From Pacificispira spongiicola (GTDB lineage: Bacteria; Pseudomonadota; Alphaproteobacteria; UBA8366; Aestuariispiraceae): DNA of 64,000 nt. The stretch is from contig NZ_JABBNT010000006.1 in assembly GCF_012926505.1 (NCBI RefSeq), forward strand, positions 1 through 64,000. The letters run 5' to 3'. Shown here one piece after another: positions 29,771-48,674 of the stretch. Under the pieces are notes generated by a model, which did no database searches, was not told the origin of the DNA, and saw nothing but the letters and a program-made list of their open reading frames with translations. The position numbers and the translations under genes are program-made. Numbering within the stretch: position 1 is the first letter of the stretch; each line of letters begins with the position of its first letter.

Positions 29771-30088
29771 ATGACGTTCTCATCTTCGGCGTCTCAACTA
29801 CGTCGTGTCGTACTATCAGGAGCGGTATCCACGCTCGCTTCTGCCGGTTGTTCCACCATTGCGCGAGCGCAGAGCTCGGAATGGGTTAAGCCGGCGACGG
29901 ATTTGTTTGGGGATCTGGAAATCGGTCTTGTCGATATCGGCGCGGTGATCGTCGGGATCGGCATCATCGCCAACGGCATCTATGCGACCGCGACCGGTAA
30001 GCTCCAGTTCGAGCAACTGGCCTTCCGGATCATCGGCGGGTTGATGATCGTCGCCGGTCCCTCGGCGATCCGCGCGCTGCTGGGGTGA
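29771..30088 (+). CDS. virB2: VirB2/TrbC-type conjugative pilin
   Basis: A 105-residue pilin precursor. A long N-terminal leader ends near ARAQS (about residue 36). The mature part has the two hydrophobic helices of VirB2 pilins (VDIGAVIVGIGIIANGIYAT and FRIIGGLMIVAGPSAIRALL) with a short hydrophilic turn (TGKLQFEQ) between them. It is the major subunit of the transfer pilus. Twelve bases separate it from traM and four from virB3. Confidence 0.85.
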   Translation: MTFSSSASQLRRVVLSGAVSTLASAGCSTIARAQSSEWVKPATDLFGDLEIGLVDIGAVIVGIGIIANGIYATATGKLQFEQLAFRIIGGLMIVAGPSAIRALLG

Positions 30089-30091
30089 TCC

Positions 30092-30415
30092 ATGAAAGCC
30101 TCGGCAGCCGTTTTGACATCGTTTCAGAAGCCGCTCACCGTCTTCGGCATGCCCTTCAAGATGGGGGCAATGGCCTTTGGGGCGCCTGTCCCTGTGTTGG
30201 CGGTTAGCGTGCTGATGCACAAGGTGGTGTACGGCTACATATCCTGGCTCGGTCTAACGGCGCTTGCGCTCCTGTGGGTTTGGAAACGCAATCGGGAGGA
30301 CTACCACTTCGAAACGCTCACGCTTTTACCCGTTCAATTTTGGAAGGGGAAGGACCGCCGGCCACTGTTGGCCGGTGGCGTCCCGACAAAGAAGAGACGG
30401 GGGCGGAAGCGATGA
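30092..30415 (+). CDS. virB3: VirB3-type inner-membrane transfer protein
   Basis: A 107-residue protein with two adjacent hydrophobic segments (MAFGAPVPVLAVSVLMHKVV and YISWLGLTALALLWVWKRN) followed by a conserved REDYHFETL segment and a basic tail. Both length and topology fit VirB3, which associates with VirB4 at the inner membrane during pilus assembly. Its end overlaps the virB4 ATG by four bases. Confidence 0.85.
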   Translation: MKASAAVLTSFQKPLTVFGMPFKMGAMAFGAPVPVLAVSVLMHKVVYGYISWLGLTALALLWVWKRNREDYHFETLTLLPVQFWKGKDRRPLLAGGVPTKKRRGRKR

Positions 30416-32778
30416 TCTGGCAGGAGATCGCGACAACCGCCCTTTTGGCGGTCGGTGCCGGCGCTTTATCAACGCGCGTCGGCCGCAATCTGGTTCTTGG
30501 TTCGGTCGAGCATGACTGGCTCGCCGACGAGTTGGAACTCGATCGCATCGAGCCCGACGGTGTGACGGTGCGCCTCAAGTCCGGATACTTGTTCAGAGCC
30601 TTCCGGATCACCGGCGTTAGTTACGATGCGCAGACGCTAGAACAGCAAGACGTGCTGATGGCGGGTCGCAACGCGATGCTGCACCAGTTGGGACAACTCG
30701 GCCTGTCGGTCCGGATCTTCGGGGTTAAACGACAGAGAAATATTGCCTTCGAGTCCGATTGGCCCTCCGAGACCCTGGCGGAGATCGGCGAGGCGGAGCG
30801 GCGTCATTATCGGGAAAGCTACTTCATCGATTGGTTCCTCGTCATCGGGTCGAAGGAATATCGCAAGCTCCTGGAAGGGAGCAGCAAGGTTCCGATCGGG
30901 CTCGGTGTCTATCGGCCGCAGCCGGTCGAACGAGCTGAACGCGACAACGCGCCGTGCCCTCTTACCGGCTTCGTCAATTTCCTGGTCTGCGGCGACTTGC
31001 GCCGCGACCTCCCGTCGATCTCCGAAAGCCTCTCCGGGTCGCTGCCGGCATCCGATTTCGATCCGGACAAGAGCACAGGACGAATTTCGACGGCGGTCCC
31101 GACCCAGAAATTCCACAAAGTCCTATCGGTGCGCGGTTGGCCCGAGGCGGTGAGCGGCAGGATCGTCGGGGCAATTCTGGCGATCCCCGGCGATATCGAG
31201 ATTTCGCAAATCGGCCGCCCGGCGTCGCCTGTTCGCGAACTGGGGTTTATGGGCCGCAAGAAGCGGGAATTGGATCTCGGCCTGATCGGCAATCCGTCCG
31301 CTTCTGCGGAATTTGGGGCGGCGATCGAACTTGTGAACAACGGCGAGGCCAATGTTTGGAACACTCAGTTCCAGGTGATCGCTCGCGCGAACACGCCGGA
31401 AGACCTTGACGCCCTGGTGCACGAGATTGCGAGCGTCTTCGGCCGGTACCGCGTCGTCTACTCCCTGGAGACGAAGGGGGCGCCGGTCGTCTGGTTCAAC
31501 CGCATTCCCGGCAACGATCATCTGCTGCGGCCGTTGCGGCTGCTCGACAGCCCGATCGCGGCGATTTGGCCCTTCCACTATGCGGCCATCGGCCTTGAGA
31601 AGAGCCCCTACGGCGATCGGCCGGTGCGGCTGTTCCAGACCGCCTCCGGCCAGGCCTATGCCTTTCAGTTCCATGTCGCGGAGAAGCGCCGCTCGATCGG
31701 GAACTATCTGGTCTTCGCGCCAAGCGGCGGGGGCAAGTCCACTCTGATCATGCATCTGCTGGGCGGGCTCGCCAAGTTCGCTGATGTGCGGTCTTACGTC
31801 TTCGACAGCAAGGAAGGCGCGCGGTTCATGATCGAGGCCTTCGGCGGTGTCTATCAGTCCTACGATACCTTGGCGCTGAACCCGCTCGATGTCGGGGCGG
31901 ATTCGGTCGCGAACCGGAAGCGGATCTATCTCGCCCTCAAATCCCTGATCGGCGAGGAGAGTACCGACGACGAGGACGAGGCGGACCTGGCCCATGCCGT
32001 CCAGCTCGCCTTCAAACTGGCCCCGCCGGAACGCACGCTTGATGCGATCTATGAATTCGCCTTTCGCAAGCGGTCGAGCTTGCGTCGGTCCATGTCCAAA
32101 TGGGTGACGGACGGGAAGGGGAATGCGGGTCTGAACGCGCATATTTTCAATGCGCCCCGGGACAGTCTGAGCGGCTTCCTCGGTCAGTCCTTCCTGGTCG
32201 GCATCAACATGAACGAAGCATTGCGCGATCCGGTCCTGGGACCGCCGATCGTCACGCATGTTGCCTCCGCCATCGAAATGGCCGCGCATAACCAGTTGGG
32301 CGATGTCGGCGGCTTCAATGTCTTCATTGACGAGGCCGCGAACCTGATGCGCAACGAGGGATTCAAGACCCTCGTCGCGGAATGGTATCGCGAGATCCGC
32401 AAGCTGAACGGCGCGATCGGCGTTGCCTTCCAGGACCCTACCGCTTTGTTCGAAAGCGGTGTGGCCGATGCCGTGGTCGAGAATACCGCGACCACGATCT
32501 TCTCCCCAAACCCGAAGGCCAACCTGACGGCGCTGCAACGCTTCAATCTGAACAGCGAGCAGATCGGTTTCATCCTGACACCGCCGGCGCCGGGGCAACG
32601 CCGCGTGCTCGTCGTCAAACAGGACGCCGCTGCCGGGTTCGAGGAAAGCGCGATCGTCGATGTCGATCTAGGCACGCTCGGCGACGTGACGCGGTTTTAC
32701 GATTCCGGACCGTCCTCGGTCCAACGTCTCAACGATCTCAAGGAAAAGTGGGGTGAAGCATGGGCGCGCTACCTGTGA
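30412..32778 (+). CDS. virB4: VirB4 family type IV secretion ATPase
   Basis: A 788-residue ATPase. The N-terminal CagE/TrbE domain (residues ~30-400) is followed by the P-loop VFAPSGGGKSTLIMHLL near residue 436 and Walker B-like NVFIDEAANLMRNEG near 640, then an arginine-containing C-terminal region. It powers pilus assembly and substrate transfer at the base of the channel. The ATG at 30412 (MIWQEIATTALL) gives the normal N-terminus; the open frame upstream overlaps virB3 and is not coding. An N-terminal hydrophobic stretch suggests close membrane contact. Confidence 0.93.
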   Translation: MIWQEIATTALLAVGAGALSTRVGRNLVLGSVEHDWLADELELDRIEPDGVTVRLKSGYLFRAFRITGVSYDAQTLEQQDVLMAGRNAMLHQLGQLGLSVRIFGVKRQRNIAFESDWPSETLAEIGEAERRHYRESYFIDWFLVIGSKEYRKLLEGSSKVPIGLGVYRPQPVERAERDNAPCPLTGFVNFLVCGDLRRDLPSISESLSGSLPASDFDPDKSTGRISTAVPTQKFHKVLSVRGWPEAVSGRIVGAILAIPGDIEISQIGRPASPVRELGFMGRKKRELDLGLIGNPSASAEFGAAIELVNNGEANVWNTQFQVIARANTPEDLDALVHEIASVFGRYRVVYSLETKGAPVVWFNRIPGNDHLLRPLRLLDSPIAAIWPFHYAAIGLEKSPYGDRPVRLFQTASGQAYAFQFHVAEKRRSIGNYLVFAPSGGGKSTLIMHLLGGLAKFADVRSYVFDSKEGARFMIEAFGGVYQSYDTLALNPLDVGADSVANRKRIYLALKSLIGEESTDDEDEADLAHAVQLAFKLAPPERTLDAIYEFAFRKRSSLRRSMSKWVTDGKGNAGLNAHIFNAPRDSLSGFLGQSFLVGINMNEALRDPVLGPPIVTHVASAIEMAAHNQLGDVGGFNVFIDEAANLMRNEGFKTLVAEWYREIRKLNGAIGVAFQDPTALFESGVADAVVENTATTIFSPNPKANLTALQRFNLNSEQIGFILTPPAPGQRRVLVVKQDAAAGFEESAIVDVDLGTLGDVTRFYDSGPSSVQRLNDLKEKWGEAWARYL

Positions 32779-33362
32779 CGCCGTCAGATAATTCCGTTCG
32801 CCCGCATGCGACCGCATGGGATTGGTTGAACAGCGGCGCGCTGACGGAGGCGCCGCCGGATATCTTCGCCTTCGCGCTCATGGCGGCCGATACCCTGGCA
32901 CCGTTGGCGCTCGACTATTACGCGGATCTCAGCAGCAATCTTGCCGCGACGAAGCGGGAGTGTGCGCTAGCGACGGCGGAGGCCATGCGCGCCTGGCCGG
33001 ATCGGAACCTTCCGGACACGCGGCCCGGGGAAACGCGCGGCCTGTCATCCGTCGCCGGGTTGACGACAGTGGAGGATCTGCGGGCGCCTGGCTCTATCCT
33101 GCATCGCGCGACCCCGGAGATGCCGGTCTACATCCTCATGCCCGAATGGGACGAGGAGAGCCGCAATTGGCTCTCCGCCTTCGAAGCGGCCGCCGTTCAT
33201 TTTTGGGCCTTCCATGCGGAACGACAGGGTATCGATCCTCTCAAATGCCGGTCGGCTGCGACGATGGTGCAAGCGCTGATGCGCTACGGCCACAAGTCGG
33301 CGGTTCCGCCGGCGATCCTGACCGCGACGGAAGCCGTGTTCGGGAAGGGCGGTGCGGCGTGA
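32760..33362 (+). CDS. unknown protein encoded between virB4 and virB5
   Basis: A 200-residue soluble protein, acidic to neutral, without signal peptide or membrane helix. Recognisable pieces are TAWDWLNSGALTEAPPDIFA, FALMAADTLAPLALDYYADL and PVYILMPEWDEESRNWLSAF. I do not recognise the family. It overlaps the virB4 stop by 19 bases and its own stop overlaps the virB5 GTG, so it is tightly coupled to the secretion operon. No canonical VirB component sits here, so it is either an element-specific cytoplasmic accessory or a regulator of assembly. Confidence 0.7.
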   Translation: MGALPVTPSDNSVRPHATAWDWLNSGALTEAPPDIFAFALMAADTLAPLALDYYADLSSNLAATKRECALATAEAMRAWPDRNLPDTRPGETRGLSSVAGLTTVEDLRAPGSILHRATPEMPVYILMPEWDEESRNWLSAFEAAAVHFWAFHAERQGIDPLKCRSAATMVQALMRYGHKSAVPPAILTATEAVFGKGGAA

Positions 33363-34090
33363 GGCGGTTCCTGAAATACGGCTCCGTGGCGGCTCTGCTA
33401 ACCGTCTCGATCCCGGCCGGGGCCGAGTATCCGGTGATCGACGCCTCGGCCTTGGAAAAGGCAACTCAGCAGCTCAGCGAAATGAAGAAGCAGTTGGAAG
33501 AGCTGCAAGCGTTCAACGACAAGCTTCAGGCGCAGATCAACGCGATCGGCGAGGCGGGGCAAATCGCGGTGCCGATCTTCAACATGGCAAAGGTCGGCTC
33601 CCAGCTGCGCCAAGACGCGCAATGCCTGGTCCCCGATTTGTCCAAACTGATGCCGTCCCTCAGTTTTGAGGACGTGAATTTCGGGTCGATCTGCGAGGCG
33701 GCATCGGCCTACCGGCAAACGCTTTGGGTCGATCCTGAAACGAAGCGTGGCTTGCGGTACAGCGAACGGCAAAAGCTTCGCAAGGAGCTTGAGCAACGCC
33801 GCGAAAACATCCTGGTCGATATCACGTCGAAGGCGCTCGCGCAGGGCGATATCGCGGCCGACACGGCGCTTCAGCTGAACGAGGCGGCGGACGAACACGA
33901 GCGCAACGTCAAGGCCACGCGGCAGTCCAACGAGAGACTAAACCTCATCCCGCAAGGGCAGGTGATGATCGCTCGCGGCCTGGCGCAACAGAATCAGATC
34001 CTCGCGACAATGCTCAAGCTCCAGGCGGCCTTCATCATGAAGGCCGGTGTCCCGGTCGATAGCATCATCGCCGTGGAAGAGGAGGAGTGA
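33359..34090 (+). CDS. virB5: VirB5/TrbJ-type minor pilus component
   Basis: A 243-residue exported protein. A signal peptide (FLKYGSVAALLTVSIPAGA) is followed by long helices typical of VirB5/TrbJ: ALEKATQQLSEMKKQLEELQ near the mature start and LAQQNQILATMLKLQAAFIM near the C-terminus. Two cysteines lie in the middle (AQCLVPD and GSICEAA). VirB5 caps the pilus tip and contacts recipients. Start GTG at 33359, overlapping the previous stop; the longer in-frame reading to 32816 overlaps the unknown gene and is rejected. Confidence 0.85.
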   Translation: MRRFLKYGSVAALLTVSIPAGAEYPVIDASALEKATQQLSEMKKQLEELQAFNDKLQAQINAIGEAGQIAVPIFNMAKVGSQLRQDAQCLVPDLSKLMPSLSFEDVNFGSICEAASAYRQTLWVDPETKRGLRYSERQKLRKELEQRRENILVDITSKALAQGDIAADTALQLNEAADEHERNVKATRQSNERLNLIPQGQVMIARGLAQQNQILATMLKLQAAFIMKAGVPVDSIIAVEEEE

Positions 34091-34100
34091 GCCGATGGCG

Positions 34101-34709
34101 TCAGTCGTCCCACTTCCAAAGGCCGGTCTTCTTCATGCTGTTACGTTTTTTGAGCGCCAGGGCCTCGTCACGCGCGACGTTCTGCGGCTCACGCCAATCC
34201 GGCAGATCATTGCAGTCGTTGGTAAACAGCCGCGCCATTCGTGCGACCGACGCGCAGTCGAGCATTGTGTGGATGTTGTTGAACGACATGCCTCGTCCAT
34301 CGCGGGCGTATTGATACATCCGGTAAGCGTTGTTCCACATTTCATATGCCAAGAACAGGTCGTGGAGCTTCGGCAGATCCTCTCCGTGGTCGTAGTTGTC
34401 GAGCAACTGCTGGGCGGCCGCCGGATCACTCTTTCTCAATGCTTCCCATTCGTCATAGCGCTCTGCGGGGTCGAGCGGTGCAAAAGCGCGCTCCAGACCA
34501 TCGCGGTCTCTGACCGTGTTCCAGAACTCTTGCGTCGCTTTGAAATCAAAAAAATCCGTCCGTTGGATGGTCGCAGCCTGCGCCGTGCCGACAGAGCCCA
34601 TCCCAAGGAAGAGGAATAGAATAATGGCAGCACCCGGCAGCAGTGGAAGTTCCGTCGGTCTCCTCGTCCCGATCGTAACGAAATACGTCGAACTGGCGAA
34701 TTCCTTCAC
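34101..34709 (-). CDS. antisense secreted protein between virB5 and virB6, unknown function
   Basis: On the minus strand a 200-residue reading starts at a GTG (34709; an alternative frame opens at 34805). It has a hydrophobic export signal PGAAIILFLFLGMGSVGTAQ, cut after AQA, and a helical mature domain (FFDFKATQEFWNTVRDRDG, then LFLAYEMWNNAYRMYQYARD) with two cysteines (MLDCASV, TNDCNDL). The plus-strand frame over the same DNA looks random, so the minus frame is judged real. Its 5' end overlaps the virB6 start. Position between virB5 and virB6 is where IncP carries the entry-exclusion protein TrbK, but here the strand is reversed and no similarity is seen. Confidence 0.6.
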   Translation of the reverse strand: MKEFASSTYFVTIGTRRPTELPLLPGAAIILFLFLGMGSVGTAQAATIQRTDFFDFKATQEFWNTVRDRDGLERAFAPLDPAERYDEWEALRKSDPAAAQQLLDNYDHGEDLPKLHDLFLAYEMWNNAYRMYQYARDGRGMSFNNIHTMLDCASVARMARLFTNDCNDLPDWREPQNVARDEALALKKRNSMKKTGLWKWDD

Positions 34710-35772
34710 CCAAGACCTCAGCGAAGCGCTGATCGCGCCGATGCTGTTGCTCTTCACGGCAATCGTCGGTGTGTGGGTCGTCATCAAGGGCATCAAGCTC
34801 TCCATCGGTAAAGAAAACCCGCTGGCAATCGCGCAGGAATTTATCTTCGTGATTGTAGCATCCGTGCTCCTCGGAGGCCAGGGTCCAGGGCTAGTAAATA
34901 TGATTTATCAAGCCTCTCTGAAGATGATGGGGGCGGCGGCAAGCGTCGCGCTGCTCGTCGGTCAAACCAATGGCGATTCAATCGAAGCGGGTGGAAGTCT
35001 CGGGGCGGGCATGGAGGCGCTCGTAACGGCCGCCGAGCATGGTTTATTGCAAATCATCTACATGGCCTGGGATGTCGCCGGGGAATGGTCGATCACCAAT
35101 CCGCTGATGATCCTGGCCGCTCTTTTGCTCCTGCTGCCCTACTGCATCGTTCTCGTGGTGTATTTCAGCCATGTGGTGATCGCGATCTTCCGGATCATGA
35201 TGCTGTCGGCGCTGTCGCCCTACATGATGCTCGGTTTCGGCTTCGGCTGGGGCCGCGAGATGGCGGTCAAAGGCATCAAGACGGTGATCTCGTCCTTCAT
35301 GGTGCTGTTCGGCGCGACGGCCGCTCTTGCCGTCATGCTCTACGGCGTCACCGCCCTCAATGTCGGGGCCGAAGGCGCCGATGTGGGCGATTGGGCCTCG
35401 ATCTCCAATCCCGACTTCATCCTTGCCGTGGCGCTCGGATGGATGGGGACGGCCTTCATGACCGAGGCAACCGGGATCGCGAACTCGATCACGGAATCCG
35501 CTCTCACCAATACCGGTGCCGGCATCATCACCGCCGGGGCCTCGGCCTCGGCGCTTGCCGCCGGGAAAGCCATTAAGAGTGCGCCGGCATCGCAAGCCGC
35601 AATGGGTGCGGCAAGCGGCGCTGCCGGGGCCGTAGGGTCCAACGCCGCGTTCTTCGCCGGAAAGGCGCTCGGCGCAACGCCTGCGGGCGCGGTCGCGCTT
35701 CGGGCGGCGGAGATCGCGCAGTCCTACCGCGACAAATTGAAGAGCGGCTTCAACAATCTGAAAGGAGAATGA
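34624..35772 (+). CDS. virB6: VirB6/TrbL-type polytopic transfer protein
   Basis: A 382-residue inner-membrane protein. Hydrophobic helices include LIAPMLLLFTAIVGVWVVIK, FIFVIVASVLLGG, MILAALLLLLPYCIVLVVYF and VISSFMVLFGATAALAVMLY. The C-terminal third is Ala/Gly-rich and soluble (ITAGASASALAAGKAIKSAP), as in VirB6/TrbL. It contacts the DNA substrate inside the channel. Start ATG at 34624. It overlaps the 5' end of the antisense gene, and its stop precedes the VirB7 ATG by a few bases. Confidence 0.85.
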   Translation: MAAPGSSGSSVGLLVPIVTKYVELANSFTQDLSEALIAPMLLLFTAIVGVWVVIKGIKLSIGKENPLAIAQEFIFVIVASVLLGGQGPGLVNMIYQASLKMMGAAASVALLVGQTNGDSIEAGGSLGAGMEALVTAAEHGLLQIIYMAWDVAGEWSITNPLMILAALLLLLPYCIVLVVYFSHVVIAIFRIMMLSALSPYMMLGFGFGWGREMAVKGIKTVISSFMVLFGATAALAVMLYGVTALNVGAEGADVGDWASISNPDFILAVALGWMGTAFMTEATGIANSITESALTNTGAGIITAGASASALAAGKAIKSAPASQAAMGAASGAAGAVGSNAAFFAGKALGATPAGAVALRAAEIAQSYRDKLKSGFNNLKGE

Positions 35773-35957
35773 CCATGCACCGGCTTTTGAGAATTGCCGT
35801 GGTTGCTCTGTCCCTGGTGGCCATCGCGGGCTGCCAAGCCACCACCAAAACCGAGATGCCGACAAACGATCAGGACGGGGCCGACCGGATGCGGGTCTCG
35901 CCCTGCGCCTGCGCGCCGATCGACTATGACGGGGCTGGGTTCAAATGGCTGAGCTAA
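35769..35957 (+). CDS. virB7: VirB7-type lipoprotein
   Basis: A 62-residue lipoprotein. The signal and lipobox VALSLVAIAGC place the lipidated cysteine near residue 22; the mature part is short, with CAC near the C-terminus and a final FKWLS. VirB7 pairs with VirB9 in the outer-membrane ring. It is translated from ATG at 35769 or 35775, overlapping the virB6 end, and its end overlaps the virB8 ATG by 13 bases. Confidence 0.8.
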   Translation: MTMHRLLRIAVVALSLVAIAGCQATTKTEMPTNDQDGADRMRVSPCACAPIDYDGAGFKWLS

Positions 35958-36685
35958 CCTTTTCCGGTCGTCGTCCCGGCCTGTTCCGGCGCCGTCGCCG
36001 GTCGGCGGAAGAACCGCCTCGACATGAAGCCGTGCGCCGGGCCGATCCATACAGTTTTGAGGTCGCGCATCGCCGCCTTGCCTGGATGTTGCGGATCTCC
36101 GCCGGGACAAATGTGGTGCTGGGCCTCGGGCTCTGCACGGCATTGACGGCGCTCTCGCATCTCTTCCCGTTGAAGACGACGGAAATCGCCCTGGTGCGGA
36201 ACGATTCCGTCTCGAACCAGTTAATCCGGATCGAGCCGATTTCCGAGGATGTCGATGGATTCGCGCTGCTGATGGAACAGAAGGCGCGGTGGTACGTGCG
36301 CGCCCTTCTGGAGATCGATGCCGTGACGCAGACCGAACGGCTGCGCCAGGCCTTCGTCATGACGGACGACAAATTCTATGAAGCGTTCAAGAAAGAGCGG
36401 ATCGACAGCGGCGCGATCCAGGACGCGATCAACAGCGGCCTCACGCGGTCGATCACGGTGGAAAGCGTCGATCTGATTGAGAGCTACGACGACAACAAAA
36501 GAAAATACGCCGTGGATCTCGTTCAAACCGACACGCGCCGGGGCGACGTCGTAGAGACGAAGAAGATCCGCGCCTACCTCGCCATGACAACCCGACCGCA
36601 CACCGTGCGCGAAGCGGATCGCTTCGAAAACCCGCTCGGAATCACGGTCCTCGATCTCTCCCTCAAAGAAAGGGCAAATTCATGA
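35945..36685 (+). CDS. virB8: VirB8-type assembly protein
   Basis: A 246-residue bitopic protein. A basic cytoplasmic tail of about 50 residues is followed by one helix (ISAGTNVVLGLGLCTALTAL) and a periplasmic NTF2-like domain with segments TEIALVRNDSVSNQLIRIEP and LRQAFVMTDDKFYEAFKK. VirB8 nucleates the channel. ATG at 35945 inside the end of virB7; its stop overlaps the virB9 ATG by four bases. Confidence 0.85.
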   Translation: MAELTFSGRRPGLFRRRRRSAEEPPRHEAVRRADPYSFEVAHRRLAWMLRISAGTNVVLGLGLCTALTALSHLFPLKTTEIALVRNDSVSNQLIRIEPISEDVDGFALLMEQKARWYVRALLEIDAVTQTERLRQAFVMTDDKFYEAFKKERIDSGAIQDAINSGLTRSITVESVDLIESYDDNKRKYAVDLVQTDTRRGDVVETKKIRAYLAMTTRPHTVREADRFENPLGITVLDLSLKERANS

Positions 36686-37668
36686 AGCGCGATCTTCTCG
36701 CTGCTGCGTTCCTTCTGTCGTGCCTGCCGGTTGGCCCGGCCCTGGCGCAAACGCCGTTCACGCCGCCGCCGGCCTCGGACCTGCCGCCCATGCCGGTTTC
36801 CGATGATGTGGTCCGTCAGGCCGAGCAACAGGCCGAAGGCCAATTCGGCGCGATGCGCCGGGCGCGGATCGGCGGTCAGATTCAAGAGGCATGGAGCCGA
36901 AGCGAGGAGGGTAGCGCCGTCTTCGAATACAAGGCCTGTGCGCGCTGCACCTACAAGGTTCGGCTCCGCGAACAGATGGTCACTGTCCTGGAACTGCCGG
37001 ATGGCGAGATGTTCAAGGCGGCCGATCTCGGAGACAGTGCGGCGTTCAAGGTGGAAGCCCGCTCGTCTCGACTGATCGCGGTGAAGCCGCTGACGATGGG
37101 GATGGATACCAACCTCGTCGTCTACGGTACGTCGGGCGCGGTCTATCCCTTCTATCTGCGGGCCGAGGCCTTCAACTCGGAGAATATCACCGACTTCGTC
37201 GTTCGTTTGGTCGGCGGTATCGAGAAGGACGGCCCGGATATTGTCGGGCCTGCGGCATCGCTGACGCAAGCCGGGTCGATTGCCACGACGGCGGGCGCGT
37301 CGGACCTCGCGGACGCCGTACAGGGTCTAAAGCAGACCGATCCCGGGACGGTTCCCGGCGATTACGTCCAGGAGGCCAAGTTCGATCCGGACAAGCTGCG
37401 CGGCTGGGGCGAGTACGAGCTGTGGGGCGACGAAGAGCTGAAGCCCGAGACGGTCTTCCGGGACGACTATTTCACCTATATCCGCTTCGGCTCGAAGTGG
37501 AAGGATGTCGAACTGCCGACCGCCTATGTCACGGTCGATGGCATCGACGAACTGGTGAACACCCGCATCGAGGGCGCCACCTACATCATCGAGAGCACGC
37601 AGCGGCTCATCACACTGAAATCCGGCACCAAGTTCATGTGCGTCCGGTATCCGGAAGGGCTTTCGTGA
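36682..37668 (+). CDS. virB9: VirB9-type outer-membrane ring protein
   Basis: A 328-residue periplasmic protein with a signal peptide (LLAAAFLLSCLPVGPALAQ). The N-terminal half carries YKACARCTYKVRLREQMVTV and the beta-rich AFKVEARSSRLIAVKPLTMG; the C-terminal half ends in a VirB9/TrbG-like domain (PETVFRDDYFTYIRFGSKWK, then RLITLKSGTKFMCVRYPEG). Between the halves is a ~80-residue linker. It forms the outer-membrane core with VirB7 and VirB10. Its stop overlaps the virB10 start. Confidence 0.88.
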   Translation: MKRDLLAAAFLLSCLPVGPALAQTPFTPPPASDLPPMPVSDDVVRQAEQQAEGQFGAMRRARIGGQIQEAWSRSEEGSAVFEYKACARCTYKVRLREQMVTVLELPDGEMFKAADLGDSAAFKVEARSSRLIAVKPLTMGMDTNLVVYGTSGAVYPFYLRAEAFNSENITDFVVRLVGGIEKDGPDIVGPAASLTQAGSIATTAGASDLADAVQGLKQTDPGTVPGDYVQEAKFDPDKLRGWGEYELWGDEELKPETVFRDDYFTYIRFGSKWKDVELPTAYVTVDGIDELVNTRIEGATYIIESTQRLITLKSGTKFMCVRYPEGLS

Positions 37669-38741
37669 TGCTGTGCGAAGCGGCCCTTGCCCTCGGATTG
37701 ACCCTGGGCGGTATGTGCAGCGGTGAACCGCCTGCGGCGGGCACTGTGCCGATGCCGGAGAACGATGCCGGCTTGTGGGGGTTCACCGATCCGCCGCCGC
37801 CCGAACCGCCGCCACCGCCGCCCGCGCCAGCGCCGGCACCGAACTTCCCGCCGATCGTCATCCGCGAGGCAGCGCCGCCTCCGGCGCCACCGCCGCCGCC
37901 CGCTCCGGCGCCGGTCGTGGTCGAGGCGCCCGCGCCCAATCCGTATCGATTGGCGTTGATGACCGCCCTGTCTCGCCGCGAGGGTTCCGACGCGGACCTG
38001 GTGCGGATCTCCGCGCCGACTGTCTCCGCCGGACCTGGAGCGCTTCGAGCCGACCCCCTGGCGTCGATCTCGCCGCCGGCAACGCCGAAGCCGGAGGAGC
38101 AATATCAGGCCGAACACCGGACCTCGACGGGGCCGGTAGACAATTCCCGGAAGATCGCGGTCGATCGATACATCACCGGGAACCTCGAAATGGGTATCAA
38201 CAGCCAGTTGGATTCAGACGAGGGCGGCGAAGTCGTCGTTCAAACGACACGCGATGTATTCGGTTATCACGGCCGGAATATCCTGATCCCCAAGGGTTCT
38301 CGGCTGATCTGCCGCTTCAAGGGACCCGACGAGATCGGCAAAACCCGGATCGCGCTTAACTGTTTTCGCATTCTGATCGCCGGGCACCGGGCGGAACTTT
38401 TCGAAATCAACTCACGGATCGGCGACGTGCAAGGTCATGGCGGCATAACCGGCGAAGTCGATACCCGGTTCTGGGAGAAATACGGGACGGCCTTCATCCT
38501 GACCGGCATTTCGGGCGCGGTGCGACTGGCAAGCGCCGCGACCGCGACGGCCGACGACGGCAACGCGATTTCCAGTATCGCGGATGCCGGCGGGCAGGAG
38601 TTGAGCCAGAAACTCGGGGAAATCACCGCCTCGATCCTGGAACAGACGGTCGATCTCAAACCCATCGTGACGGTCTCTCAGGGAACGCGGGTGACCATTC
38701 GTCCGCAATTCGATTGGTATCTCAAGAAAGTGGAAGGGTGA
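37668..38741 (+). CDS. virB10: VirB10-type core protein with a very short N-terminus
   Basis: A 357-residue protein. After a brief hydrophobic stretch (ALALGLTLGGM) there is a long proline/alanine-rich linker (residues ~42-90), then the conserved C-terminal beta-barrel domain (ISGNLE-type segment VDRYITGNLEMGINSQLDS, then GYHGRNILIPKGSRLICRFK and FWEKYGTAFILTG with the antenna helices). Canonical VirB10 has a cytoplasmic tail of about 20-50 residues and a clear inner-membrane helix; here both are nearly missing. Start ATG at 37668, with GTG at 37665 possible. It spans the envelope and senses ATP use by VirB4/11/D4. Confidence 0.85.
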   Translation: MLCEAALALGLTLGGMCSGEPPAAGTVPMPENDAGLWGFTDPPPPEPPPPPPAPAPAPNFPPIVIREAAPPPAPPPPPAPAPVVVEAPAPNPYRLALMTALSRREGSDADLVRISAPTVSAGPGALRADPLASISPPATPKPEEQYQAEHRTSTGPVDNSRKIAVDRYITGNLEMGINSQLDSDEGGEVVVQTTRDVFGYHGRNILIPKGSRLICRFKGPDEIGKTRIALNCFRILIAGHRAELFEINSRIGDVQGHGGITGEVDTRFWEKYGTAFILTGISGAVRLASAATATADDGNAISSIADAGGQELSQKLGEITASILEQTVDLKPIVTVSQGTRVTIRPQFDWYLKKVEG

Positions 38742-38743
38742 GA

Positions 38744-40891
38744 ATGATGAAACGGCATCTCATGGCGGCCGTGCTGGCCTCCCTTTACCTGTCGGCGCCG
38801 GTCCTGGCGCAGACGGTTCCGGATCAATCCGTGACGGCAGCGGATGGGGCGACGGAAGACAGTCTCACGCAGCTCGTGGATATCGTTGCACGATCGACGG
38901 CGGTCGTTCCGTTGGCGGCGGGGGAACCGGTCGCAGTGGATCTAAGCCTGGTCTCGGTGCCGGGCGCCGAGCCGGGGCTTGCAACCGGCGTCACGGCCAA
39001 AGGCTTTGCGCGCTATGTCGATGTCGAGGGCCAGAAAATCGCCCAAGTGGTGCTGACCGGCGTTGCCAAGGGCGAGAAGCAGGAAGCCCTGACGCCGGAG
39101 AAGTTTGCAGCGCAATTCGACTTGGAAGATCCGGAACTCAACACGCAATCCGTCACCATCAAGGGGGACGGGCCGGAGCTGGTCTCGGCCCTGCGCCGAC
39201 TGGCGGAGAATTCAGAAGATGCGCCGGAAGAGGAGCCGCAACAGGTCATCTCGGCGAATGACGACGGTGCAAAGGAGGTCGGCGGCAGCAAGTCTCAGAA
39301 CGATCAAGCGGGCACTTACACAACGCCGGCTGCGGTCACCGTTGCGGAAGCTTCTGATCCGGTTGAGACCACAATGGTTTCGACGGAAGGCTGTTTGATT
39401 GACGTCGATCTGGAAAGCGGACTCGCGAAGGTTCAGAACAAACGGCTGACCCTGATTGACGGCGTGGTGAGTTCCGAGACGGAATGCTCCGATAGCGGTG
39501 TCAGCTATCCAATCAAGCGCAGCTATGCCGCTTGTACGTATGACGAAGACCTGGAGACGCTAAAGGCGACGGCGCAGTACCAGCCCTATTATGTCGATGG
39601 CGGCGGGAACCGCCAGGACGTGGGCGACGACTGCCTGAAGGATGCGGATCTGGTCTTCGATATCGTACCGGTCGCCTGTCCGATCGATATTAATGTGAGT
39701 ACCGAGAAGGCGACGCCTCAAGAGAAGCTCGTCTACGTCAATCACGTAAACAAGGATGTCGAAGCGCGGGGCTGTCAGGCCTCCGAGACCAAGGCCCCTG
39801 TCGATCTGGTCAAGAGCACGACAGTCTGCGGCATACGCCCGGATTGGGACGCCAAGGAAAGCGTTCAACAAGCCGCCTGGACCTACGAGTTGGACGGCCT
39901 TCAATACCAGTACGGCGGCTGCGTTGATACCGATACCGTCTATCCGCACCAATCGGTCTATGTCGATGGCAGCGGAAAGAGCCTGTGCAGCCCGGTAACG
40001 GATGCAGACGGTCAACCGATCTCCGCGCAGAAGAAGATCCGGATCACGGTTGGCGACATTCCGACCTTCATCACCGACTGCACGCCGGATGCGGATAAGG
40101 CGATTACGCGGACGGAAGAGGGGTGCGCGAACCCGGCGCTTTGGCGCCATGACGTTGCCGGCGGCTGGTCCTATCCGAAGGATCGGTATTACTTCGTTCA
40201 GGACGGGAAACAGGTCCCGGTGACGGAGTGCCAAGAATCCGTTGTGTCGGCGGCAGTGCCGCATCAGCACGAGACCAACGGCTGGCAGAACCATGACGAT
40301 CAGCTCTATGCGCTGCCGCTGACGACGGTCTATATCGAACCGGCTTCGGGCCGCTATGACATCACGACGGCCACGGTGCTGAACGGCGCTGTGCAGCAGC
40401 CCTATGTCTTCCAGAACAGTGTGACGGAATGGAACGGACAGACGGAATACGCCGGCTGCGATGCGCTGCGGCTGACAACCGTTTACGAAATCCACGAGCG
40501 TCCGGACGGAACGGATTACAAGAAGCCGATCGGTGACGGCACGCCCTACTCAGAGAATTCCTGTTCCTCGGTCGTTCAGACGCCGGTTTGGACGACCAGC
40601 AATCCGTCGACATATACGAGACGCCAGGTTTGCACCTTCTGGAAAAACTATGTCGATGGCGGCGACGGGCATTCCTACTCCGTCTGTGAACAATCTGAAT
40701 GGCGCTATACCCACACGCACTATTATCGCGGCGTTCGGAAACTAAGCCGTGATGACGGGATGACCGTCGAGCAGCACTCCACGGCAGAATATGCGTATTC
40801 CTCTCCGGAAACGACGGATGCGAACGAAGCGCCCTCAAGCCCGTTTACGGGCCCGGAGCAAATATCCTGGAATCAGGCGGAGGGCTGGTGA
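38744..40891 (+). CDS. large secreted cysteine-repeat protein in the virB operon, possible adhesin or pilus-associated protein
   Basis: A 715-residue exported protein with a signal peptide (LMAAVLASLYLSAPVLAQ). An N-terminal part resembling a helper domain is followed by about 480 residues of beta-rich, cysteine-spaced repeats. A recurring motif of the type Y-V-DG, then about ten residues, then Cys, is seen near residues 281 (YYVDGGGNRQDVGDDC), 405 (VYVDGSGKSLC), 481 (YFVQDGKQVPVTEC) and 634 (NYVDGGDGHSYSVC). No VirB family matches. It lies exactly between virB10 and virB11, overlaps the virB11 start, and is thus co-expressed. Export plus disulfide-type repeats suggests a surface or mating-pair protein (inference). 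Confidence 0.75.
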   Translation: MMKRHLMAAVLASLYLSAPVLAQTVPDQSVTAADGATEDSLTQLVDIVARSTAVVPLAAGEPVAVDLSLVSVPGAEPGLATGVTAKGFARYVDVEGQKIAQVVLTGVAKGEKQEALTPEKFAAQFDLEDPELNTQSVTIKGDGPELVSALRRLAENSEDAPEEEPQQVISANDDGAKEVGGSKSQNDQAGTYTTPAAVTVAEASDPVETTMVSTEGCLIDVDLESGLAKVQNKRLTLIDGVVSSETECSDSGVSYPIKRSYAACTYDEDLETLKATAQYQPYYVDGGGNRQDVGDDCLKDADLVFDIVPVACPIDINVSTEKATPQEKLVYVNHVNKDVEARGCQASETKAPVDLVKSTTVCGIRPDWDAKESVQQAAWTYELDGLQYQYGGCVDTDTVYPHQSVYVDGSGKSLCSPVTDADGQPISAQKKIRITVGDIPTFITDCTPDADKAITRTEEGCANPALWRHDVAGGWSYPKDRYYFVQDGKQVPVTECQESVVSAAVPHQHETNGWQNHDDQLYALPLTTVYIEPASGRYDITTATVLNGAVQQPYVFQNSVTEWNGQTEYAGCDALRLTTVYEIHERPDGTDYKKPIGDGTPYSENSCSSVVQTPVWTTSNPSTYTRRQVCTFWKNYVDGGDGHSYSVCEQSEWRYTHTHYYRGVRKLSRDDGMTVEQHSTAEYAYSSPETTDANEAPSSPFTGPEQISWNQAEGW

Positions 40892-41853
40892 TGGGCAACA
40901 TCGCGATCAGCCCGCTGCTGCGCGAGACCCTGGCGCCGCTGTCTGCGCATTATGACGATCCGGCGACCGTCGAGATCCGCATGACCAAGCCCGGTATCGT
41001 CATCACCGATCGGCGCGGGATGGGCAAGCAAGCGGTCAGCGACGATGGACTGACGCTTGCGGCCGTCGAGGCTCTTGCCCGATCCCTCGGCAACTTTCAC
41101 GGCCTGGGCTTTAATGGAGAGGACCGGCCCAAGCTCTCCTGTGTGCTGCCGGGCGGGCATCGCTTCGAATGCCTGGTCGGCCCGTCCGTCCAGTCCGGCC
41201 TGTCGCTCGCGATCCGCTGCAAGCATCCCTTCACGCCGACCTGGGAACAGCTCGGCGCGTCGGCGGCGGTGGTTCGTTATCTGACGGAGGCGGTCGAAGG
41301 GGAGCGGAACCTGATCGTCTCCGGCGCCACCAATACCGGCAAGACGACCTTGTTGAACATGCTGCTGGCCGGCCTTCCGGATCATCGCCGCGTGATCGGG
41401 GTCGAGGATACGCCGGAATTGTCGCTCGGCCGCTTCTGGGACGGCGTCGGCCTGATCGCGGCCCGGGAGGAGGGCGGCAGTACCTCGACCGGTCTCCAGA
41501 CCTGGCGGCAGCTCTATGACCATCTCATGCGCGCGACGCCGGATCACATCGTCTTCGGTGAAATCTCGACGCAGAACGCCTTTGCGGCCCTGGCCGCACT
41601 GAATAGCGGCGTGACCGGCTTCATGTGCACGATCCATGCGGAGAGCCCGCATCAGGCGATCCATCGCAAGTTCGATCAGAATATCGCCTGGTCCGGAGAG
41701 ACCATGCCGCGCGTACCGGAGTTCCTCTCCGAACTGGTCGATGTGGTGGTTCAGATCAAACGCGATAGTTCCGGCTTCCGTCGCATCACCGATATCTACG
41801 AGCCGATCGAAGATCGCTTCGTCCTGAAGGACGGGAAGGAGATTGGCGCATGA
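40891..41853 (+). CDS. virB11: VirB11 family secretion ATPase
   Basis: A 320-residue hexameric ATPase. The N-terminal domain (residues ~1-135) is followed by Walker A GATNTGKTTLLNMLLAG, the Asp box VIGVEDTPELSLG, Walker B DHIVFGEISTQNAFAAL and the His box GFMCTIHAESP. It switches the channel between pilus building and DNA transfer. The ATG at 40891 overlaps the previous stop (TGATG). The stop overlaps the virD4 start by four bases. Confidence 0.93.
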   Translation: MGNIAISPLLRETLAPLSAHYDDPATVEIRMTKPGIVITDRRGMGKQAVSDDGLTLAAVEALARSLGNFHGLGFNGEDRPKLSCVLPGGHRFECLVGPSVQSGLSLAIRCKHPFTPTWEQLGASAAVVRYLTEAVEGERNLIVSGATNTGKTTLLNMLLAGLPDHRRVIGVEDTPELSLGRFWDGVGLIAAREEGGSTSTGLQTWRQLYDHLMRATPDHIVFGEISTQNAFAALAALNSGVTGFMCTIHAESPHQAIHRKFDQNIAWSGETMPRVPEFLSELVDVVVQIKRDSSGFRRITDIYEPIEDRFVLKDGKEIGA

Positions 41854-43724
41854 TCGCGATCCGTCTCTCTCTCCTGAGCCTGCCTTTGTTGGGCGCCGCC
41901 TTCATCCTGTGGCGGTGGCAAGTCGCGATCGGCTTCCAATGGCAGGATGCAAGATGGTGGCAATGGCTTTGGCAGGTGTTGCGCCGGACCGGCGGTCTGC
42001 CGGCGGAACTGCTTCATCCAACCTATTATGCCGGTGGCGGCATGATCCTCGGTGCTCTTGTCGTTTTGGTCCTCGCGTCGCGCGCCTCTGCCGCGACTTT
42101 GCATGGCGGGCGGGACTCCAAGGCGCTGCACGGCTCGGCTGCCTGGGCAAAGCTTCGGGATATCCGAAGGGCAGGCCTGTTCTCGCCACGCGGCGTCGTG
42201 GTCGGCGGCTGGAAAACCTGGTGCAAGATCCGGACCTTGCGCCATGACGGGCCGGAGCATGTCATGGCCTTCATGCCGACGCGCTCGGGCAAGGGGGTGG
42301 GGCTCGTCATCCCGACGCTGCTGACCTGGCCGGACTCGGTCCTGGTGCTCGATATCAAGGGCGAGAATTATGCGCTGACCGCCGGCTACCGCGCCTCGAT
42401 CGGACAGCGCGTCCTGCGCTTCGAACCGACCGCGACGGAAGGCTCGGTGCGTTACAACCCGCTCCAGGAGGTTCGCGCCGATACCCGCCATGTGATTGAG
42501 GACTGCCAGAACATCGCCTCCATGATCATTGATCCGGACGGCAAGGGGCTGAAGGATTTTTGGATGCAGTCCGGCTGGGAGTGGCTCTCCGTCGTCATCC
42601 TGCATGTTCTGTTCCGGGTTCGGCGCGAGTCCGGACGCCGCGCCAATCTCCATGATGTGAACCGCTTCATGTCGGCCGTGGCGATCGATGCGGCGGAGCG
42701 CACGAGCGAGGACAATTTTGAGGAATTCCTGGAAGACATGATCGCCTTCCGTCACGGTGCGAACTGGATCGACGACGAGGTACAGCGCGGCGCGTCGAAG
42801 ATGCGGATCAAGGCGCATCCGGAGCGTTCCGGCGTTCACAGCTCAGCCGCCGTGCAATTGGCGCTCTATGCCGATCCGATCGTCTCCAAGAATATCGAGG
42901 AAAGCGACTTCCGGCTCGACGATCTGATGAACGGCGAGCACCCGGCCTCGCTTTATATCGTCATCCCGCCCTCCGATATCGACCGGCTGCGGCCGCTGAC
43001 GCGTATTCTCATGAACCAGTTCCTTCGACGCCTCACTTCGGAAATGGAGTTCGGCGAGGGGCGCAGCCTGAAGGGCTACAAGCACCGCTTGCTGCTGATG
43101 CTCGACGAGTTCACCTCGATCGGCAAATTGGAGATCTTCGAACGGGCGCTCGCCTTCATGGCGGGCTACGGGCTGAAGGCCTTCATCATCATCCAGGACC
43201 TGCGCCAACTCCGGAAGGAATACGGCCGGGACGAGTCGATCACGGCGAACTGCCATATCCGGATCGCCGCTGCGCCCAACGAGGTCGAGACAGCCGAGAC
43301 CCTCTCCAAAATGGCCGGCACCACCACCGTCGTGCAGCGCAAGCGCTCCCGGTCGGGCAATCCGGGCGTCGCGATCGGCAGCGTCTCGGAAAGCCTTCAG
43401 GAGACGACGCGACCGCTTCTGACCGTCGACGAATGCATGAAACTGCGCGGGCTGGAGAAGGATCGCAAGGGCAACGCCAAACGTGCCGGCGACATGCTGA
43501 TCTTCCCGGCCGGCTCGCCGCCGATCCTCGGCCGGCAGACCCTTTACTTCCAGGACAAGGAATTGCTGCGACGCGCCCGCATGCCGGCGCACGGGCCGGG
43601 TGTGGAAATCGAGGAGGCGGCGCCGTCGGAACCGGCCGCGCCGCCGGCGCCCCTGTCATCGGCTGCGACCCTGTCGCCGGTCGATCGCTACGAACAGGCG
43701 TTGAACGGGGGAGGGACAGCATGA
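41850..43724 (+). CDS. virD4: VirD4/TraG type IV coupling protein
   Basis: A 624-residue ATPase anchored by two N-terminal helices (LSLLSLPLLGAAFILWRW; YYAGGGMILGALVVLVLA). P-loop MPTRSGKGVGLVIPTLL near residue 145, Walker B LLMLDEFTSIG near 415, and a C-terminal low-complexity tail. It hands the relaxase-DNA complex to the secretion channel. The start overlaps virB11; the end overlaps the small XRE regulator by four bases. Fully present. Confidence 0.93.
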   Translation: MIAIRLSLLSLPLLGAAFILWRWQVAIGFQWQDARWWQWLWQVLRRTGGLPAELLHPTYYAGGGMILGALVVLVLASRASAATLHGGRDSKALHGSAAWAKLRDIRRAGLFSPRGVVVGGWKTWCKIRTLRHDGPEHVMAFMPTRSGKGVGLVIPTLLTWPDSVLVLDIKGENYALTAGYRASIGQRVLRFEPTATEGSVRYNPLQEVRADTRHVIEDCQNIASMIIDPDGKGLKDFWMQSGWEWLSVVILHVLFRVRRESGRRANLHDVNRFMSAVAIDAAERTSEDNFEEFLEDMIAFRHGANWIDDEVQRGASKMRIKAHPERSGVHSSAAVQLALYADPIVSKNIEESDFRLDDLMNGEHPASLYIVIPPSDIDRLRPLTRILMNQFLRRLTSEMEFGEGRSLKGYKHRLLLMLDEFTSIGKLEIFERALAFMAGYGLKAFIIIQDLRQLRKEYGRDESITANCHIRIAAAPNEVETAETLSKMAGTTTVVQRKRSRSGNPGVAIGSVSESLQETTRPLLTVDECMKLRGLEKDRKGNAKRAGDMLIFPAGSPPILGRQTLYFQDKELLRRARMPAHGPGVEIEEAAPSEPAAPPAPLSSAATLSPVDRYEQALNGGGTA

Positions 43725-44610: not shown

Positions 44611-44778
44611 ATGACGACAGATCCCAAAGACGAAATCGCCGCGATCGAGCGGCTGACGCTGAAAGGCCTGCCGGTCGCGGTCGATCCGGAGACGGCGGAC
44701 GCCATGGGGGCATTCGAGGAAGACGCACTCGACGAAGAAACGGCGCGCGAGTCCGGGGGGCCGTCCGATGGCGAATGA
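44611..44778 (+). CDS. small acidic protein upstream of the ArdC-like gene
   Basis: A 55-residue reading starts at ATG 44611, preceded by a strong GGAAGAGGG site. It encodes a highly acidic protein (KDEIAAIERLTLKGLPVAVD, then AFEEDALDEETARESG). Its stop overlaps the start of the ArdC-like gene by 11 bases, an arrangement typical of coupled translation. Small size and strong negative charge recall DNA-mimic or antirestriction helpers, but nothing in sequence proves it. Confidence 0.55.
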   Translation: MTTDPKDEIAAIERLTLKGLPVAVDPETADAMGAFEEDALDEETARESGGPSDGE

Positions 44779-47234: not shown

Positions 47235-48674
47235 ATGATTGCCCACAAGGTCATGGAGAAGAAGGAGAGGGCGGCGGACAAACCGCCGCCCTTCTCCAAA
47301 CGCGCCTATTACATTGCGGCCGCCAAGGAAGGGAACGAGAAGCTCGATCATCTTTGGATCGTCAATGCCAACGCCGGCACAGAGCTCGAGGATCTCGACC
47401 TCGCGGTGAAGGAGGTCATGGCGGCGCATAGCCTCAACACCCGCTCGAAGGCCGACAAGACCTACCACCTCGTCGTCAGCTTCGCCGCCGGCGAAAAGCC
47501 CGGCCTCGAGGCGCTGAAGGATGTCGAGCGCAACTTCGCTCGGGCGCTCGGCTTCGAGGATCATCCGTGTGTTGCTGGCACGCATGACAATACGGATCAC
47601 TATCACATCCATATAGCCTATTCGAAGATTCACCCGGAGAAGCTGACGATCCACGAGCCGAAGCAGGATTTTAAGGCGCTCGCGCGGACCTGTCGGGAGA
47701 TGGAGAAGAAATACGGCCTTCAGCCCGGCATCAAACAGGACAAGGACCCGATCGAGCGGCTGCTGACGCCCAAGGCACGCGATTACGAGGCGACGACCTG
47801 GGAGGCCTCGACGGAGCGCAAGATCCTCGAACATCGCGAGCGCCTGGCGGAGACCTTCGGCAAGGCGAAGACCTGGGCGCAACTCCAGGATCTCGCCGCG
47901 AAGGAGGGTCTCGCCTTCGCCAAGCGCGGTAATGGTCTAGCGCTATTGACGCTCAAAGGCGGGAAGGGGATCAAGGCCAGCACGCTCGGCCGGAACTTTT
48001 CCCGGAAGGCTCTGGAGGAGAAGCTGGGCGCCTTCGAGCCGTCCAGACACACGTCGCCGTCCAAGATGAGCTGGTTCGACCGATTGCGGCCGTCGAAGCG
48101 TCTGCCGGGTATGGGGCCGATGTGGCGGCAATATGCGACGATGCGCGGTCGCCAGGCGAAGGCGCCAAGCTTGGTCGGAACGCTCTATCGGAACTGGAAA
48201 ACGTTTCTCTACGCCGACGCACTGAACGATCCGCTCGCGATGGCGCTGATCATGACCCACAGAGGCATGCTGGATCTGTTGCTGGGCACAGATGCCCAAC
48301 GATCTGCAAATAGGTCCTCTAGAGCCGCCGCAAACGCGGTTGCAGAGGCGCCAAAGCCCAAAGCGTCGGAGACGACCATCCTCGTAGATCAAGGCACCGC
48401 CCCGTACCGACACAAGGAGGGGGCTCCGGAAACTTACTTCGTCACGATCCGGACGGGCGATCAGTCGCCGGCAACGATCTGGGGCAAGGATCTGGCGCGG
48501 GCGATTGCAGCAGGGAGAGTTAAACCAGGTGACCCGATCTCAATATCTCTTGATCAAGAAAAGGCTGCGTTCGACACATCGATCCGCCAAGCTGGAGCAC
48601 GAATGAGGGGGCGGAATATTTGGCGGATTTCTAAAGTTACCGTTAGGGGAATGGACCGAGGGGCGGATCGGTAG
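47235..48674 (+). CDS. traI: MOB-P type relaxase (TraI/VirD2-like)
   Basis: A 479-residue relaxase. The N-terminal domain carries a nearby tyrosine pair (SKRAYYIAAAKEGNEKLDHL) and the histidine triad segment HDNTDHYHIHIAYSKIHPEK (motif III, HxH). Motif-II-like residues (KTYHLVVSFAAGEKPG) lie between. The C-terminal half is basic and helical, with a domain that may bind DNA. The enzyme nicks the transfer origin and pilots the strand through the coupling protein. The length is a little short for IncP TraI but usual for ICE-type members. Confidence 0.87.
   Translation: MIAHKVMEKKERAADKPPPFSKRAYYIAAAKEGNEKLDHLWIVNANAGTELEDLDLAVKEVMAAHSLNTRSKADKTYHLVVSFAAGEKPGLEALKDVERNFARALGFEDHPCVAGTHDNTDHYHIHIAYSKIHPEKLTIHEPKQDFKALARTCREMEKKYGLQPGIKQDKDPIERLLTPKARDYEATTWEASTERKILEHRERLAETFGKAKTWAQLQDLAAKEGLAFAKRGNGLALLTLKGGKGIKASTLGRNFSRKALEEKLGAFEPSRHTSPSKMSWFDRLRPSKRLPGMGPMWRQYATMRGRQAKAPSLVGTLYRNWKTFLYADALNDPLAMALIMTHRGMLDLLLGTDAQRSANRSSRAAANAVAEAPKPKASETTILVDQGTAPYRHKEGAPETYFVTIRTGDQSPATIWGKDLARAIAAGRVKPGDPISISLDQEKAAFDTSIRQAGARMRGRNIWRISKVTVRGMDRGADR

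Follow-up and report, generated by a model that had tools for sequence, protein, structure and literature searches.

What is a large exported protein doing in the middle of a conjugation operon? We analysed a 64,000-nucleotide stretch of Pacificispira spongiicola DNA (contig NZ_JABBNT010000006.1, positions 1 to 64,000; hereafter the window), in which a long reading frame, here called gene X, interrupts the series of virB genes (Table 1). An initial annotation, made from the sequence alone, had described X as an exported cysteine-repeat protein that is not a canonical VirB component, and had offered a surface or mating-pair stabilising factor or an exclusion determinant as its role. We examined where X and its relatives are found, how the protein is built and how its parts evolve.

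Gene X keeps one position in virB operons

The reading frame of X runs from an ATG at 38744 to a TGA at 40891. It begins after a gap of 3 bp from the virB10 stop (38741), and its 3' end overlaps the start of virB11 (GTG 40888 or ATG 40891); the coordinates thus confirm the annotated placement exactly between virB10 and virB11. The annotated signal peptide is likewise recognised by inspection, residues 1-22 (MMKRHLMAAVLASLYLSAPVLA, followed by Q) being of the cleavable, signal-peptidase-I type. X contains 16 cysteines, none of them within the signal peptide, and its relatives contain 14-27.

Sequence searches of Pfam, PHROG, NCBIfam and the PDB returned nothing credible for X, phage genomes gave no match and IMG/VR contigs held no relatives. 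A known phage-fibre family was looked for as well, and X of the window matches no phage or known family. When 22 diverse family members were compared with Pfam, NCBIfam and PHROGs, scattered single matches were all that was found, and 21 of the 22 had no PHROG match. No description of the gene was found in the open-access papers searched, although one may exist elsewhere; as far as these papers and the sequence libraries go, the family appears to be undescribed.

Table 1. Features of gene X and of the surrounding virB operon in the window
Feature	Coordinates	Strand	Description and basis
gene X	38744..40891	+	715 aa; exported protein, predicted VirB10-like base, cysteine repeats and variable tip
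signal peptide of X	38744..38809	+	residues 1-22 (cleavage VLA/Q); by inspection
N-terminal base domain of X	38870..39214	+	residues 43-157; predicted fold like the VirB10 C-terminal domain
disordered linker of X	39215..39358	+	residues 158-205; pLDDT about 30
six ~49-residue cysteine repeats of X	39374..40267	+	residues 211-508; unit HMM and hhalign; pLDDT 81-93
beta-rich connector of X	40268..40561	+	residues 509-606; conserved
hypervariable, exchangeable tip of X	40562..40888	+	residues 607-715
virB2 pilin	29771..30088	+	PF04956 2e-5
virB4	30409..32778	+	homology to annotated virB4
virB5-like	33359..34090	+	PF07996 0.0025 (below cut-off) and position
virB6	34555..35772	+	PF04610 3e-5
virB7-like lipoprotein (MHRLLRIAVVALSLVAIAGC)	35775..35957	+	sequence inspection
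virB8	35945..36685	+	PF04335 2e-12
virB9 (CagX/VirB9)	36682..37668	+	PF03524 4e-27
virB10 (TrbI)	37668..38741	+	PF03743 1e-35; start by inspection
virB11 (T2SSE/VirB11)	40888..41853	+	PF00437 7e-17
virD4 coupling protein	41850..43724	+	homology to annotated T4SS coupling proteins
relaxase	47235..48674	+	PF03432 1e-30

A profile search with a narrower family alignment found relatives of X in 27 contigs of other genomes, and among 385 sampled genomes of the class 11 carry one. Relatives are found in Alphaproteobacteria, on one Nitrosospira plasmid and on one Desulfovibrio plasmid, the latter found via virB9; the other plasmid relatives come from Thalassospira, Magnetospirillum, Magnetospira, Roseibium and Azospirillum. 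In all loci with readable flanks (about 50, all of them virB operons), X has virB10 on one side and virB11 or virD4 on the other. Of the genome-contig loci, 27 of 27 fit this pattern, as do 13 loci from whole genomes and every plasmid record inspected, so the restriction of homologues to virB operons, which the initial annotation had proposed checking, holds for all relatives with readable surroundings. Of the plasmids, the ten with the VirB9 most similar to that of the window (E<=5e-28) all carry X, whereas in the more distant systems of Erythrobacter, Sphingosinicella and Microvirga virB10 is followed directly by virB11. Because the closest systems carry X and the more distant ones lack it, X belongs specifically to one lineage among the VirB conjugation systems.

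The window genome contains a second X-type operon on another contig (L016; G000:C12:44000-63900). Its X is 78% identical to that of the window, and its VirB11 and VirD4 are 95% and 87% identical. Elsewhere, X is split into several frames in L083 (G119:C122) and in Roseibium S1616 (L014); further transfer genes are also broken in L083, showing that decaying operons exist. Two candidates were rejected, L047 as an intact gene, since in this remnant a TraL-like fragment is fused to a fragment of X, and a match of 26 residues in G003, which was treated as chance.

Further features of the operon were observed. VirB10 proteins usually begin with a cytoplasmic segment and an inner-membrane helix. In the X-type group, VirB10 (37668-38741 in the window) has instead a short hydrophobic start that includes a cysteine near its beginning (MLCEAALALGLTLGGMC), and a proline-rich linker comes next. 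Downstream of virD4, the 44768-46891 protein combines an ArdC N-terminal domain with zincin metallopeptidase, DUF5710 and Toprim domains, and most related loci have a similar gene behind virD4. Between virB5 and virB6, a gene on the opposite strand (34101-34805, minus) has no Pfam match; homologues in the same orientation are present in most Thalassospira/Magnetospirillum-type loci, and its products in the two operons of the window genome share only 51% identity. By its position and variability, this gene is a candidate for entry exclusion.

The N-terminal base has a predicted VirB10-like fold

The base domain folded alone with AF2 gave a model with pLDDT 90.6 and pTM 0.81. The 13 best VIA-align matches of this model were all outer-membrane-core proteins of the VirB10 family (92-114 residues, Z 6.3-9.2, a likeness of predicted structure only, for which a Z of 6-9 alone is not decisive), and the next, unrelated, match reached a Z of 3.6. 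They include TraB of a plasmid related to F (9.2), TraB of F itself (9.1), a further conjugative core complex (8.7), CagY (8.3), DotG (8.0), X. citri VirB10 (7.5), TrwE (7.1) and ComB10 (6.7). Foldseek ranked ComB10 first, with a probability of 0.94 but an E of 0.31. Sequence profiles detected no relation between X and the VirB10s of the same operons (hhalign, probability 1%), and X has no sequence match to TrbI PF03743. From the models, we consider it highly probable that residues ~43-157 adopt a fold like the C-terminal barrel of VirB10, TraB, CagY and TrwE, in a protein whose gene directly follows virB10.

X nevertheless differs from VirB10 in its layout. The base model shows one terminal helix only, and it therefore lacks the helical hairpin that forms the VirB10 antenna crossing the outer membrane. 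No outer-membrane anchor of X was identified. The N-terminal inner-membrane anchor of VirB10 is also missing, being replaced, as judged by inspection, by the cleavable-type signal peptide, and a rod and a tip are appended to the base. X would thus have a VirB10-like base yet fall outside the VirB10 family definition. The initial view of X as no canonical VirB component stands in that PF03743 does not match, and has to be qualified by the predicted fold of the N-terminal domain.

Cysteine repeats follow a disordered linker

Recurring Y-V-DG...Cys units had been annotated over about 480 residues. The repeats are real: the unit HMM places six adjacent copies at residues 211-508 and has no match in 200 shuffled versions of the window X, and the profiles of the six units, derived from 22 members and compared by hhalign, give pairwise E of 2e-6 to 1e-16. 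The regular array, however, extends over about 300 residues and not 480. Its best-conserved mark is a pair of cysteines 31-35 residues apart, whereas Y-x-DG is found in some units only. Within the window X alone, the units are only marginally alike (p 0.01-0.6 for most pairs, r1/r6 and r2/r3 alone being strong), and it is therefore the profile test that carries the repeat claim. Members have 3-10 units, with 8 in Roseibium, 7 in Desulfovibrio and at least 10 in G211; thus, rod length evolves. In the Azospirillum p5 member (L012:11965-13098; 378 aa), which is without the VirB10-like N-terminal domain, the signal peptide runs straight into the repeats.

The full-length AlphaFold2 model (26 sequences) is beta-rich, with residues 206-606 mostly at pLDDT 81-93 and a disordered linker. 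The stacked beta repeats anticipated for X are thus reflected in a beta-rich model, but in no confident match to a solved fold: the full-length model has no confident match in the PDB or BFVD, and the repeat region resembles no solved fold confidently. WD40-, LptD- and gp34-like PDB chains were discarded as candidates for the fold (TM about 0.1 or less). Residues 461-606, which take in the connector, are 93% identical between the two X copies of the window genome.

The tip of X is exchanged by recombination

The tip is modelled poorly (pLDDT ~55). Between the two X copies of the window genome, the base is 90% and the repeats are 81-93% identical, and identity falls to 37% at residues 607-690. 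A similar comparison of seven Thalassospira operons shows 91-98% identity in the base and first repeats, whereas the C-termini form discrete alleles. Tips are 91-97% identical within one allele group (L024, L027 and L039), 93% identical between L026 and L028, and 15-60% identical between the others. In pairs carrying clearly different alleles, DNA identity in the tip is 36-42%, returning to about 85-93% in virB11. The identity breakpoint is sharp and is located at residues ~560-620, according to the pair.

Base and tip diverge in opposite ways in different pairs. In L025/L028 the base has a dS of 0.37 and the tip is saturated, whereas in L024/L027 a base dS of 0.38 goes with a tip dS of 0.09; in L024/L039 the values are 0.76 and 0.29. 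Fast evolution alone is therefore insufficient, and exchange is needed. Furthermore, the tip tree is incompatible with the base alignment (AU p 3e-23); rejection of the base tree by the tip alignment is weak (p 0.017). Other parts of the operon recombine as well: the trees of virB10, virB11 and the base mutually disagree, indicating that these operons recombine broadly and that the tip is the extreme case. No silent or spare tip cassettes of the shufflon kind were found in the window genome, and exchange is therefore between elements. The Desulfovibrio ferrophilus plasmid member (L070:5406-7766) has a differing, glycine-rich C-terminus that matches phrog_4474 (E 3e-11), which suggests that an unrelated domain can take the place of a tip.

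X as a candidate recipient-contact adhesin

TraN of F-type plasmids consists of a conserved base and a variable tip, and exchange of the tip alters recipient specificity (PMC13104618, PMC10516633). X resembles TraN of these MPF_F plasmids in being an exported, cysteine-rich protein of 600-1000 aa encoded within the transfer operon, and in joining a conserved base to an exchangeable, variable tip. It differs in that all its loci are VirB-type and not F-type tra operons, and in that a predicted VirB10-like base and regular ~49-residue repeats replace the architecture of TraN. We rejected X as a TraN homologue: the family profile compared with F TraN gave a hhalign probability of 0.5% and an E of 0.13, and X has no Pfam or NCBIfam match. 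By analogy, X would work like TraN, recipient binding included, without being a member of its family.

Two other known systems bear comparison. The pilus-tip protein VirB5 is a candidate cell-contact factor of VirB systems. X is unrelated to VirB5 in sequence and has no PF07996 match, and the window has a separate VirB5-like gene, which is well conserved in Thalassospira. The PilV shufflon tip of IncI plasmids combines, on a conjugative plasmid, a constant stalk with a variable C-terminal tip. X has the same arrangement, in a genome without silent tip cassettes. The type IV pilus of R64 has been described, and for plasmids such as R388 and RP4, in contrast to the TraN tips of F-type plasmids, a specific recipient factor has yet to be identified (PMC10516633).

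The operon-bound position, core-like base, variable-length disulfide rod and recombining tip lead us to read X as a dedicated accessory of the VirB-type conjugation machine, most likely an adhesin that contacts the recipient and stabilises mating pairs, and we favour this reading with moderate confidence. X would then be a TraN-like mating-pair recognition adhesin on a VirB10-like base. The protein would first be exported by Sec, and its base would attach to the outer-membrane core complex or insert into it, next to VirB7, VirB9 and VirB10. The disulfide-stapled repeats would form a rod displaying the C-terminal tip outside the donor, where the tip may bind a surface structure of the recipient. 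By exchanging tips through recombination, plasmids could change their partner range or escape resistance. The surface or mating-pair stabilising role originally put forward fits an exchangeable tip; surface exposure and function we infer.

X may instead serve channel or pilus assembly as a structural element of the outer-membrane core complex or of the pilus base, with a tip that varies under phages specific for the pilus or channel and under other antagonists. The VirB10-like base fold, the adjacency to virB10 and the retention of the base across distant groups agree with such a role, as does the finding that deletion of TraN in pKpQIL also abolishes pili. The related operons of Erythrobacter, Sphingosinicella and Microvirga do without X, which therefore is not a universal channel part, and we regard a structural role as unlikely, though worth keeping in view. 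Phage or immune-like pressure, and not recipient choice, could be the source of tip variability.

An exclusion determinant, the other role suggested at the outset, would have the tip act as a donor-side specificity factor that resident plasmids recognise through an exclusion protein. In its favour, one genome carries two related operons whose tips differ, as if to avoid mutual exclusion. Known Eex proteins are small, whereas X is large and multi-domain, and the 34101-34805 gene is the more Eex-like candidate; in the one group tested, tip alleles follow neither the alleles of this gene nor those of virB6. We consider exclusion very improbable. Least probable of all is a phage-tail-fibre-like or effector protein that travels with the operon and is secreted by the machine without being part of it, to which the phrog_4474 match of the Desulfovibrio member and weak fibre-like BFVD matches of the rod-like beta repeats might point, but against which stand the lack of phage-genome matches and of PHROG matches in the other members, the Sec signal peptide, the invariable operon position and the VirB10-like base.

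Implications for partner choice in VirB systems

For F-type plasmids, it is established that a tip, that of TraN, recognises the recipient. If X is a recipient-contact adhesin, we can tentatively picture a second VirB10-fold protein in the VirB outer-membrane ring that carries a disulfide fibre and an exchanged receptor-binding tip, placing recipient choice at the mouth of the channel. The fold of a channel ring protein would then have been reused as the foot of an adhesin, and a family locked to VirB-type operons, whose base is conserved and whose tips are exchanged, would make VirB partner choice directly testable in environmental Alphaproteobacteria.
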